Source: Alligator mississippiensis (Eukaryota > Chordata > Crocodylia > Alligatoridae). From it: DNA of 64,000 bases. Under the pieces are notes generated by a model, which saw nothing but the letters and a program-made list of their open reading frames with translations, was not told the origin of the DNA and did not search any database. Below, one piece after another: positions 8,349 to 50,342 of this stretch (position 1 is the stretch's first letter; the number at the start of each line of letters is the position of its first letter). Location: NCBI RefSeq assembly GCF_030867095.1, contig NC_081828.1:2185001-2249000 (forward strand). The letters run 5' to 3'. A program made the translations under genes and the position numbers.

Positions 8349-11300
8349 TCACATTACCCATATGTCCGTGCCCGCGTCCCTGTCCATGTCGATGGACACG
8401 CAGTTATAGGCTGCGTATCGCAGCTTCTCCTCACAGACCTTGGCCCTGGAAAGGAAGAAAAGATGCAGTCAAGGTACTGCTGCAAGTCCACCAGCCGAGG
8501 GAAGCCGAATGCTTCACACACCAGGGATTACGGCAGAAAGTACTTTGTAGCACAGACTAGGGAAGTAAGGCTCAGAGAAGCAACCCCATGAGCCTGGGGA
8601 AGATCTGGATGCAGAATCCAGACATCCTGACTCGCAGGCCTGGACGTGAGCCCTGGATCTAACAGGTGAAAGCAGAGTTGCCAACTGTATGTAAATTGAC
8701 AGACAAACCATTATAAAGAGAGCCTAAAAACACCTGTTCATAAAGTCTATAAAAAAACTGAACCGTCTGTAAAAGACACCAAGCAGCCAGAGCTTGATGG
8801 AAGCTCTGTCTCTTAACCAGGCTGCATGCTGAAGACCACACAGAGCAGAGCAATGCTAACTAGTGTGAGACGGTCCAGTGGGGTCCCACACTGGTGGGAC
8901 ACCAGCTCTCTGCAGGAAGTATTTTCTCAGGGCATGGTAGCCTGGTGTGCACATGGGAGCCCCTTCCCCACCCCAGTCGTGTGCTGCTGCTGCTGCTACA
9001 GGATCCCATCACTGCCTGTAACACTGGTCTCACAGGCAGGCAGATAATAGTCCATTTGGAGTCCAGGAATGGGCAGGGGGTGGGGATAAGTAGAGGACCC
9101 CGGGGTGGGTCAGCACAAACAATGCAAAACTATTGCTGCAGTTAAACAGGGCTGCCAACACAAGATTTTTTTACTTGGCTTTTTTTTTACTGACAATCTG
9201 GAAAACATTTTACTGACACCCAAACTATTTCACTATAGTTGGTGTTAACTCTAAATCCTGAACCAGGCTCTTGTCTGTAAAACGTGTCAGTAAAAGTATA
9301 CATCAGTAAAAAAGATTGGCTATTAGTAAAAAGTTTACAGATTATTAGTAAAAAAATGGTCTTAGGTTGGCCTGAGTGCAAGTGTGAATTTATCTTTCAC
9401 CCTGAATGAAAGGCACCACGTCCCCCAGGATCACAACTGCCAGGTAGAGGGGGTCAAGAAGAAGCACAGCTTACGAGGTGTACTGCGGTAGGAAGAGAGT
9501 GCTGGAGCAGGTGGAGACTTCAGGCAGCACGTCCATAGCATCAGACCTTGGGGGAAGAGATGTGAAACTAGTTGGATCCAACAGGCTGCATACACAGGGT
9601 AAGCTGAAGGCTTGGACATCAGGGCACAGTCCAACCCCACGCCGGGGAGGGGGCAGGGCAATCACCCTGCTGTCTGCTGGTCGCACAGGAGGACCAACTC
9701 ACATTGACACGTGTGGGGAGATGTGGATCGACACGGGAAGGCGACTCCTGCCACTCACGAACCTGAGGAAGCGGCTGCGATCCTCTGTGGGGAGAGAACG
9801 GGGGTGCTGGGCGATGGGGATGGGAACAAAATCCAAACCCGGAGCTCAACTGCATGGAGCTCTTCATGTTCCCTGGGCTCAGCCAGCTGGAGATCTGGGC
9901 ATGTTCCCCCACACAAAAGGTGCCCGTGGCTGAGGGAAGGACCTTGCAGGGTAAGGATGCTCAGGCCCCCAGGGGAATTCTCCAGGTGACTGCTCCAATT
10001 CTGCTCACACCCACCACATATACCTCTTGGCCTGCACAGACCCAATAATTTCTGGTGCAGCCGCAACTAGCTCTCCAGGGTGGTCGCAGCAAGGCAGGAG
10101 CCGCATGGGTCACTCACCGTTGGTGAAGTTGGTGAGCGCTTCCCAGAAGCACTGGATCCTGGTGTCTGATGGCTCCATATCCTCGAACTGAGCTGGGATG
10201 GAGAAGGCAGAGAAAAGGCTCATTAGAAACAGAGATCCCCATTCCCACGGGGTACACTGGAGCAGGGCATTGCCTGAGCCCTCTGGGGCATCTCGACTGG
10301 ATCCTGGGTGGGGGAGAAGAGGCCCCCGATTCCATGCAGACCTATGGCATAGGGTCCTACACCCCTAGCACTTAAGCTGCACGAGCTGAGCCGTGGGGCC
10401 CTCCTGCTCCCAAGCCCGAAGGCACAAACAAGCCCTGCAGAGCATGCACTCCTCGCCCGGGCCTGGCTTGGAGTCTTTTTTGGCTAAACTGTCCCCACAC
10501 GCCACATGTGCGCCTGTGCTCTGTTATGAGGATTTCCCGTGCTTCTGGGCTTTGCTGGTTGCTGCAGGGGGCTGGGAAGGATTTCTGCCCCCTCCTCCCC
10601 TTGGTGCTACGTGCATCAGGGTTTCTTCTTTTTAAGCCTTGCCCAGAGGTACTGGGTGTTGGCTGCACCCAAAGCTGGGGATTGTGGCGGGGCTGTACCA
10701 ATGCTCCTGGAGGATCCTGCCTAGGTCTTGCCCCTCTGCTCAGGGTCAGCCCAATCGCCACATTCGGGATCAGAGAGGAATTTTACCCCCGGTCAAATTG
10801 GCGCAGACCATGGGGATTTTTTGCCTTCCTCTGTAGTGGGGAGAGTGGCCCTTTTCCTGGGATCTCCCAAGCGTATATTAGCAACCTTTGCAGCAGCAGG
10901 ACATAGGCCCCCACGGACGGTCCCCCTGCTTTACCCATGGCAGGTTTGGGTGTGATGCCTGGTGTTGTGTCAGGGTTGGCTGCACAGTTTTGGCTAATAG
11001 GTTGGACAATGGGTTTGTCTGGCATGGTTTGGACAGGGCTCGGCAGGGGGGCTGGATTAGATGCAATCTCAGCAGGTCCCTGCCAGCCCCAGTTGTCTAT
11101 GATTTTACGAATCTGTGTGAACACAAAGAGGGGCAGCACACACCGGAGCTACACTTTGAAGGCAAAAAGTCTCCAGATGTATGCATATGAGGCATGTAGG
11201 GAACGCACAGTGGCAGGTGATGTGGACAGCAACTCAAGAAGATGATGTTGCATTAGCCTTGCACTTACTGAAATTCTTCAGGGCCTCCACAGTGACCTCA

Positions 11301-49800: not shown

Positions 49801-50342
49801 CTGCGTGCATGCTGCGTATGTGCAGTCTGTGCGTGCGTGCAAGTCCATGCCTATGTCTGTGCGTGCATGCATGCATGCCTGTGTGTTTGTGTGCATGCAT
49901 GTGCATCTGTCTGTGCATGCGTGCATGTCTGCAGCACCTGCGCACCCGCCCGTAGCTTCTCTCGAGCTGCATTAGCCGCCCCCCGCAGCCCGGCCCGGCC
50001 CGGCCCGGCGCGGCCCCGCACCTTGCTGAGCTTGGCCCAGAGCCCCGCGCCGTTGCAGTACTCGTCTCCGCTGGCGCGCAGGCAGCTGCCCTTGCGGAGC
50101 TCGAGGCTGGCGCGGGCCAGCGCCTTGCCCGGGGCCGGCGGCGGCGCGTCCCACACGGGCAGCAGCGTGCGCGGCGCCGGCGCGGCGGCCGGGTCCTTGC
50201 ACGGCTTGTACTGCACCTCCCGCGGCACGTAGCACAGCGCGGCCGGCAGCGGCCGGGCCCGCCGCCAGCACTCCGCGCTCTCCAGCACCAGCCGGATGCG
50301 GCCCAGCCGCTGCTGCGGGCTCTCCTCCGCGCACGCCCGCAT
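31824..50342 (-). CDS. HECTD3: HECTD3 copy A, HECT-type E3 ubiquitin ligase, 845 aa, 21 exons
   Basis: The spliced product matches human HECTD3 (861 aa) nearly end to end. The family transfers ubiquitin from an E2 to substrates through a catalytic cysteine; a DOC/APC10-like domain (about residues 203-381 here) is thought to help substrate binding, and the HECT domain covers about 496-841. The catalytic cysteine is C807 in [13 protein letters not shown], equivalent to human C823. The C-terminus ends [10 protein letters not shown] as in mammals. The start at 50342 was chosen because its N-terminus aligns with the human one from [12 protein letters not shown] onward and the same ATG is shared with copy B; an in-frame ATG 135 bp upstream adds 45 residues of unrelated Gly/Arg/Pro-rich sequence. 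The gene is intact. It lies head-to-head with UROD and downstream of nothing but repeats. This copy is the better candidate for the ancestral HECTD3. Confidence 0.97.
32940..33310 (+). mobile_element. CR1 LINE 3' fragment in copy A intron 17
   Basis: Plus-strand CR1 with AGCAATGGGCTCAAGCTGCA, GTGAAGCACTGGAGCAGGTT and the 3' motif GGGGTTGGACTAGATGC. Absent from copy B intron 17. Confidence 0.85.
34745..35010 (+). mobile_element. CR1 LINE 3' fragment in copy A intron 14
   Basis: About 265 bp closely matching the last part of the CR1 at 6327-7733, starting AAGAAACAATGGCCACAAGC and ending AACATCTATGAATCTA. It ends 15 bp upstream of exon 15's acceptor side (exon 15 starts at 34730). Confidence 0.92.
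37880..38350. repeat. About 40-bp AT-rich minisatellite in copy A intron 9
   Basis: Roughly eleven imperfect units around CAGGTAGAGGTATACCTCAA and AAGGGCAAGAAAAGATATAC, with internal duplications. The unit holds a short palindrome (GAGGTATACCTC). Confidence 0.9.
39145..39250 (+). repeat. 100-bp repeat, copy 1, in copy A intron 8
   Basis: Shares AGCTGCCTTGGAAGCAGCAT and GCCATAAAAATGGAGGTCCT with 40157-40256, in the same orientation. The family is not recognised. Confidence 0.8.
40157..40256 (+). repeat. 100-bp repeat, copy 2, in copy A intron 7
   Basis: Roughly 85% identical by eye to 39145-39250. The two copies flank exon 8 of HECTD3 copy A as direct repeats about 1 kb apart. Confidence 0.8.
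42840..42930 (+). mobile_element. MIR-like remnant in copy A intron 2
   Basis: TGGGTGAGTCCCTTCATCTC and TCAGAGCCTCC resemble MIR. Short and uncertain. Confidence 0.35.
43675..43880. repeat. CA/ATAC/TA microsatellite
   Basis: ATACATACA, then a long CA run (about 43781-43827), then TATATATA and TCTCTCTC. It sits in the loop of the MITE-like palindrome. Confidence 0.95.
43880..45185 (+). mobile_element. CR1 LINE fragment nested in the MITE-like element
   Basis: 5'-truncated CR1 starting at the motif CCTTGGCAAGACC. It carries reverse-transcriptase pieces ([24 protein letters not shown]) broken by frameshifts, and ends GGGGGTCGGACTCGATGATC and TAACATCTAGGAAAT. It lies in copy A intron 2. Confidence 0.9.
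45420..45690. mobile_element. Palindromic Penelope-like remnant
   Basis: Inverted halves around GCTTTTGGGTATAAATA (45500-45516) and TATTTATACCCAAAAGC (45562-45580), ending in CTTGGACCAACACGGCTACA. The AAGCTTGC / TTGGTCTAATA signature is common in reptile Penelope-like retroelement ends; assignment is by memory of the motif, not by search. Confidence 0.45.
46590..46855. mobile_element. MITE-like palindrome in copy A intron 2
   Basis: Inverted arms (CCTAAATCCACATTTCC and GGAAAAATGTGGATTTGGGG) around a TA-rich centre, ending AATCAGAAAAAACCAGGATC. Same family as 43575-45335. Its right end is about 40 bp from the donor site of exon 2. Confidence 0.75.
47985..48605 (+). mobile_element. CR1-like LINE 3' fragment, long-3'UTR subfamily, copy A intron 1
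   Basis: Longest copy of this family in the window. It starts with a CR1 ORF2 end (GGTTCAAGGAAAGGGTGG, GTTGGGGATGATTTAGG), then about 550 bp of 3' UTR and the terminus GGCAGAGGTTGGACTAGATG. Confidence 0.78.
48605..49035. repeat. GATA/GATC-type simple repeats
   Basis: Degenerate TAGATAGATC, GGATCTGGATCT and GAGAGAGA runs, interrupted by a SINE-like insert at 48845-48962. Confidence 0.85.
48845..48962 (+). mobile_element. tRNA-derived SINE with CR1-like tail
   Basis: GATCAGAGCGTGGTG, a short anticodon-arm-like hairpin (TGGTGTTACAACACCA) and a B-box-like GGTTTGATCCC, followed by the CR1-type tail GGACTAGATCTCTCAAGGTC and TTTCTATGA. This layout is that of SINEs mobilised by CR1. Confidence 0.65.
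49035..49450 (+). mobile_element. CR1 LINE 3' fragment in copy A intron 1
   Basis: Same subfamily as 32940-33310, with GGAGCAGGGGTTGGACTAGA and terminal TGACTCTATGA. Confidence 0.88.
49440..49935. repeat. AGAC and TGCATG/TGCGTG simple repeats
   Basis: An AGACAGAC-type block (49440-49630) is followed by a GTGCATGC-type block (49670-49935). The latter holds a perfect tandem duplication of 58 bp (49741-49798 and 49799-49856). It ends about 90 bp from exon 1 of copy A. Confidence 0.9.

Follow-up and report, generated by a model that had tools for sequence, protein, structure and literature searches.

Work on HECTD3, a vertebrate HECT E3 ubiquitin ligase, has concerned cancer, inflammation and virus infection and has usually treated it as one gene. 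That it can be duplicated was shown in 2010, when two HECTD3 genes were recorded in one of the seven animals tabulated in PMC2837046, a paper that predates the crocodilian data used here. Here, we describe a pair of neighboring HECTD3 genes in a 64,000-nucleotide stretch of the Alligator mississippiensis genome (assembly GCF_030867095.1, contig NC_081828.1, positions 2,185,001 to 2,249,000, forward strand), hereafter the window. Its closest parallels lie in other gene families. Like the HBD and HBB globins, as described in PMC4390247, the pair appears to consist of neighboring paralogues with gene conversion; unlike in the globins, the main candidate tract is one first exon, it recurs in two lineages, and the product is a ubiquitin ligase. 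POLN and HAUS3 likewise give two products with one first-exon sequence (PMC4591814), but there the exon is shared by two genes, whereas here it is present as two identical copies.

Both genes lie on the minus strand, head to tail, as judged by protein-level matching:
31824..50342, minus strand: copy B, the ordinary HECTD3; 21 exons, 845 amino acids, HECT and DOC domains, head-to-head with UROD
8349..22397, minus strand: copy A, a HECTD3-like paralogue; 21 exons, 848 amino acids, HECT and DOC domains, on the EIF2B3 side

We consider it probable that copy A is an old tandem HECTD3 duplicate of birds and crocodilians, which evolves fast but under constraint and whose first exon has been converted repeatedly. 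Compared with itself, the window shows a single collinear pair of tandem paralogues, with 8381-22492 corresponding to 31844-50404. A sequence-only reading of this DNA had proposed two complete tandem 21-exon HECTD3 genes with open frames, 20 canonical introns, equal phases and the catalytic cysteine, and all of these features are seen. Introns are GT-AG at 20 of 20 positions in each copy, there are no internal stops, and exon chaining gives equal intron phases across the 21 exons. Each gene has an AATAAA within about 110 nucleotides of its stop codon. A 10-residue cysteine-containing HECT motif (STC/TC) is found in both proteins, and we take the cysteine of the shared TC to be catalytic. By comparison with database relatives, we set the start of exon 20 at 9546 in copy A and 32214 in copy B. 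An earlier choice, 39 nucleotides off, was a decoy acceptor that was ruled out by the shorter database proteins. The uncorrected models, of 861 (A) and 858 (B) residues, are each 13 residues too long in exon 20; body trees, column counts, domain identities and Pfam scores were computed on them. In these models, Pfam HECT scores above its cut-off in both copies (196.5 bits in A, 205 in B), as does DOC/ANAPC10 (PF03256) in the N-terminal half (36.9 and 52.1 bits; cut-off 21).

Copy B is identical to duck (Aythya) HECTD3 at 783 of 844 aligned residues. Copy A matches the HECTD3-like proteins of Alligator sinensis (717 of 767 aligned residues) and Crocodylus porosus (671 of 781), and its body (exons 2-21) is identical to that of its own neighbor at 522 of 737 residues. 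Its top match in the PDB is human HECTD3 (9r85, 1220 bits), and the best other family, HUWE1, reaches 95.8 bits. By these matches, copy B is the ordinary HECTD3 and copy A is the unusual gene. Copy A shares with HECTD3 (human structures 9r85, 9r8t and 9r94) the DOC and HECT layout, the STC motif and a locus beside UROD, and residues 6-852 of its uncorrected model align to the human protein nearly end to end. It differs from HECTD3 in its diverged DOC, its longer C-terminal tail, and a fast body combined with an exon 1 that tracks copy B.

A second copy unknown in vertebrates or specific to one lineage, as first proposed, does not fit the databases. NCBI already holds predicted HECTD3-like proteins from A. 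sinensis, C. porosus and many birds, the bird relatives being named HECTD3-like or HECTD3; copy A belongs among these database predictions, and they form one A clade. A bird exon-1 query (Ficedula B) returned 66 proteins, and the 42 that were classified comprise 39 A-type, 2 B-type and one B/A fusion. Ostrich, goose, pheasant, quail, parrots and songbirds are all represented among A-type rows, in the trees or the classified table. The description of the gene as undescribed holds for the literature searched, in which we recognized no paper on an archosaur HECTD3 paralogue (judged from titles and the starts of abstracts, with subscription papers mostly outside the search), but not for the databases, where it is already a prediction.

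In this genome, copy A lies in tandem with and downstream of HECTD3 on the same strand; in a bird, this arrangement is known only through a fusion protein. The predicted 1138-residue protein of Mimus melanotis runs from the last exons of HECTD3 (B) through an exon 1 into an A body. The fusion is probably a gene-model error, and it appears to reveal the B-then-A tandem order in a bird, with an exon 1 between the genes.

To place the duplication, we built a tree of the body from 30 of 40 rows, omitting Dromaius B, Apteryx B and Chelonoidis, which have odd ends, and seven others; 738 of 850 columns were kept in trees, and the Mimus fusion was omitted from all of them. The A proteins of crocodilians and birds group together in a single clade (support 100/99). 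With both A groups present, approximately unbiased (AU) tests reject a forced union of A and B within birds (p 3.4e-5) and within crocodilians (p 1.3e-4), and forcing both own-lineage pairings together makes the likelihood 62 units worse. Because the A branches are long, we also simulated the independent-duplication tree (737 columns), and a false A clade emerged in 1 of 30 simulations. At sites jointly derived in both A groups, the same new residue occurs in 19 of 54 cases, 9 of which are found in no other row.

Other results weigh against a single duplication. When one A group was left out at a time (five rows omitted, plus one A group per run), the crocodilian A and B clade was not rejected without bird A (p 0.167), and the bird A and B clade was borderline without crocodilian A (p 0.064). 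Only two columns are fixed in 16 of 16 A rows and absent elsewhere. Each A group alone can thus pair with its own B, so the case for a single duplication rests on what both A groups share. These one-lineage results, the long A branches and the grouping of exon 1 by lineage (below) speak for independent HECTD3 duplications in birds and crocodilians, with the A clade a long-branch artifact. We regard that history as very unlikely given the joint rejection, the likelihood cost, the rarity of the false clade in simulation and the B-then-A order common to Mimus and this genome.

The A clade and the joint rejection of two independent duplications point to an old tandem duplicate. The duplication would have taken place in the ancestor of birds and crocodilians, or earlier. 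An origin before archosaurs, with copy A lost in turtles, squamates and mammals, draws on the free tree, which does not join A to archosaur B: the cost is 4.65 log units when A is forced together with archosaur B and 6.09 with B plus turtle. However, neither placement is rejected (p 0.107 and 0.248, respectively), the tree being compatible with an archosaur-only origin as well as an older one, and no A-type protein was found outside archosaurs, with 14 of 14 turtle, squamate and mammal rows closer to B (among the best 120 of 262 matches, from 7999 candidates scored). We therefore consider the earlier origin unlikely, and copy A is likely absent outside archosaurs. The second HECTD3 that the sequence-only reading proposed to seek in other groups is present in crocodilian and bird proteins in the databases, but absent from the turtle rows among the matches listed.

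The most unusual feature of the locus, unremarked in the sequence-only reading, is the identity of the two first exons:
22077..22397, minus strand: copy A exon 1, 321 nucleotides, with a separate CpG-island-like stretch; matches copy B exon 1 throughout
50022..50342, minus strand: copy B exon 1, 321 nucleotides, CpG-island-like, on the UROD side; identical to copy A exon 1

The copies agree at 321 of 321 nucleotides, including 67 of 67 fourfold sites, and exons 2-21 range from 64.9 to 97.5% identity (uncorrected exon 20). This exon occurs exactly twice in the genome, both times inside the window. The longest identical run between A and B, 331 nucleotides covering exon 1 and the first bases of exon 2, compares with at most 80 in 2000 shuffles. 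Strict identity stops about 10 nucleotides beyond exon 1 on either side. About 100 bp of the 5′ flank can still be aligned, with several indels, and the 60-nucleotide flanks are 68% and 73% identical, compared with 57% for random sequence. Such diverged flanks indicate that exon 1 is not part of a recent copy of a larger segment. Plain constraint was also considered as a cause and ruled out: between window B and duck B, exon 1 is 71% identical and the body 96%, making exon 1 the fastest part of B in that comparison.

Exon 1 groups in the opposite way to the body. In an exon-1 tree (7 of 40 rows were omitted for an incomplete exon 1; 108 of 144 columns kept), sequences group by lineage, with crocodilian A and B united at 100/99 and bird A and B at 97/94, each lineage being represented by one B row. 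Within birds, an LPPALCY variant is carried by 5 of the 42 classified rows, namely Ficedula B, two Catharus A models, Turdus A and the Mimus B/A fusion. The carriers are relatives of flycatchers, thrushes and mockingbirds, and most simply the variant crossed between copies in that group. We conclude that exon 1 is most likely under concerted evolution by recurrent gene conversion. It would have been overwritten repeatedly in each lineage, leaving both proteins with the same first ~107 residues. The conversion pattern is seen in this genome and is supported by protein data in birds. Weighing against this view, an AU test on the short exon-1 alignment left a single A clade unrejected (p 0.142; identical rows were unconstrained), and in birds exon 1 was compared as protein, with A and B taken from different species.

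Could one exon 1 serve both genes? Alternative splicing might join the promoter and first exon of copy B to both bodies, with the exon 1 of copy A little used. Some bird A-type proteins are indeed named as HECTD3 isoforms (for example, Myiozetetes isoform X4 and Opisthocomus isoform X3), the two exon 1 copies have the same donor and phase, and the A. sinensis HECTD3-like model begins inside intron 1 and lacks the GC-rich exon 1, which also counts against repeated conversion. However, each gene here has a physical exon 1 of its own, that of copy A lies in a separate CpG-island-like stretch, and the Mimus protein implies that in a bird, too, an exon 1 separates the B and A genes. Splicing from copy B would also leave the identity of the two genomic copies unexplained, and we find this arrangement improbable.

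An assembly error is a still weaker candidate, one we can hardly credit. Exon 1 is GC-rich (78%), and GC-rich sequence is a class that is hard to sequence. However, the flanks of the two copies differ, with upstream indels and different introns, and 2.35 Gb in 195 contigs suggests a modern assembly. In addition, C. porosus A independently agrees with the crocodilian exon-1 residues over the portion of exon 1 that its model includes. The model of C. porosus HECTD3 is without a proper N-terminus, and the GC-rich exon 1 is absent from it.

Gene conversion may also have acted elsewhere in the pair, in a smaller tract covering exons 13 and 14:
13147..13250, minus strand: copy A exon 13, first half of the second tract; 91.2% nucleotide identity to B, with the 60 nucleotides upstream at 90%
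12651..12770, minus strand: copy A exon 14, second half of the tract; 97.5% nucleotide and 100% amino acid identity to B
35416..35535, minus strand: copy B exon 14, its partner in the same comparison

Exon 14 contains an identical run of 86 nucleotides between A and B, against a maximum of 68 in 2000 shuffles of the body. Of six rows compared, the two from the window are alone in having the motif GNGT; it is GNST in duck B, C. porosus B and A. sinensis A, and GSST in C. porosus A. Most simply, this restriction to the window copies dates the exchange in exons 13-14 to after the split from A. sinensis. From these patterns, exons 13-14 appear to be a second, smaller and older tract. In exon 13 of C. 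porosus HECTD3-like, an 11-residue stretch resembles copy B and differs from the two alligator-type A copies, which suggests a separate exon 13 conversion in the Crocodylus lineage.

Outside exon 1, copy A has diverged extensively under constraint. Nucleotide identity between A and B in the rest of the gene is 79.4% (1756 of 2211). The ratio of nonsynonymous to synonymous change (dN/dS) outside exons 1, 13 and 14 is 0.351 by NG86 (95% 0.28-0.43), about 0.15 by YN00 and 0.18 by maximum likelihood. The dN/dS check called for in the sequence-only reading thus gives pairwise values of 0.15-0.35, well under 1. Change is concentrated on one side. Measured as summed tree branches, A lies about 14 times as far as B from the point where they separated (0.44 versus 0.032), and about 93% of the amino acid change is on the A side. 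With an even split of silent change, dN/dS on that side could come to about 0.3-0.65.

Such divergence might reflect a copy that is decaying under relaxed constraint, with no ligase function. Columns that are invariant in other HECTD3 rows point the same way and count against constraint, with 36 of 260 changed in window A and 48 in most bird A rows. However, the remaining 224 of 260 are kept, dN/dS is low, the frame is open, each of the 20 introns has canonical splice sites, and A-type proteins with HECT occur in many birds and two other crocodilians. In light of these features, we think decay a poor explanation.

To locate the change, we compared crocodilian and bird proteins by domain, in human numbering, using window A against 13 bird A rows and window B against one duck B row. 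Identity in the DOC region (219-398) is 98% for B and 52% for A. By comparison, the HECT N-lobe is 96% identical for B and 75% for A, and the C-lobe 95% and 59%. Against a change specific to DOC, the regions of A beside it are 53% (119-218) and 55% (399-511) identical; because these neighbors are nearly as diverged, the DOC signal is not sharply bounded. The precomputed Pfam list shows HECT but no DOC for 15 of the 66 proteins matched by the bird exon-1 query. The DOC domain of human HECTD3 binds CRAF/HSP90 (PMC5489699), and a review of full-length structures describes it as a flexible, substrate-binding domain (PMC13196369). Combining this role with the divergence of DOC, we infer from sequence that copy A is an active HECT ligase with altered or new substrates. 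HECTD3 also acts on PKR in RNA-virus infection (PMC10319860), which makes an immune role for A conceivable. In the proposed history, the UROD-side copy B would have been kept under strong constraint as HECTD3, and the EIF2B3-side copy A would have retained the DOC and HECT layout and the catalytic cysteine while changing roughly at least 10 times faster and losing conservation most in DOC. With a second HECTD3 in birds and crocodilians whose substrate-binding domain is largely unconserved, functional results would not be simply transferable to chicken.

The composition of exon 1 suggests how it might be homogenized. Both copies are CpG-island-like, with a GC content of 0.779 and a CpG observed/expected ratio of 1.01, compared with 0.597 and 0.445 for the whole window. 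Fourfold sites end in G or C at 66 of 67 positions in exon 1; over the other exons the counts are 262 of 333 for A and 284 of 330 for B. A further GC-rich element abuts the promoter region of copy A:
22543..24740, no strand assigned: 41-bp GC-rich minisatellite with 53.7 copies; it begins 146 bp upstream of the copy A start codon

PRDM9 is absent in the birds and crocodiles sampled in PMC5519329, and in species that lack it, such as birds, recombination is placed near transcription start sites and CpG islands (same source). By analogy, we infer that promoter-directed recombination may underlie the conversion of exon 1. In animals without PRDM9, breaks directed to promoters would be repaired from the neighboring copy with GC bias, keeping exon 1 homogenized. 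Repair of this kind would explain why homogenization of the first exon recurs, and the identity of exon 1 makes it testable whether animals without PRDM9 homogenize the promoter-proximal exons of tandem genes. More tentatively, and with more doubt than conviction, we propose that in PRDM9-less archosaurs promoter CpG-island recombination has rewritten exon 1 of the HECTD3 pair over the long term. Copy A would have retained the N-terminal module and promoter-proximal sequence of B while its DOC went from nearly frozen to least conserved, yielding a neofunctionalized, possibly immune, ligase. The proposed rewriting would span some 250 million years.

EIF2B3 and UROD flank the pair on either side, as the sequence-only reading had stated. 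UROD lies to its right, and EIF2B3 is outside the window, with a minus-strand first-exon match 4.3 kb to the left, at contig position 2180726. The flanking gene within the window is
53543..57177, plus strand: UROD exons, located by tblastn with a human protein; Pfam URO-D on one exon

A search of the whole assembly (2.35 Gb, 195 contigs) with the copy-B protein gave 37 matches. Of these, 34 fall in the window; the 3 outside it show 35-45% identity, a level to be expected of other HECT genes. No third HECTD3 copy was found in this search. The two proteins also differ at their C-termini, compared here across ten tails:
8349..8445, minus strand: copy A last exon; tail differs from the ...DMSPWEE of B, with the tryptophan at -3 retained

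We had considered a frameshift as the source of the copy-A tail and dropped it, as the A tails of the two other crocodilians are similar and also have the tryptophan at -3.

The window contains further repeats. A 40-bp minisatellite of about 12 units lies between the two HECTD3 genes (29446-29908). An interspersed family of about 1.3 kb, with ~70% identity and mixed orientation, occurs at 6350-7723, 26080-27482 and 43880-45181, and a pair of fragments from this family is 96% identical (7459-7722 and 34747-35010). Six copies of one interspersed repeat are found at 1-335, 14039-14326, 21314-21455, 27701-28191, 32943-33307 and 49045-49429; these resemble CR1 3′ ends.

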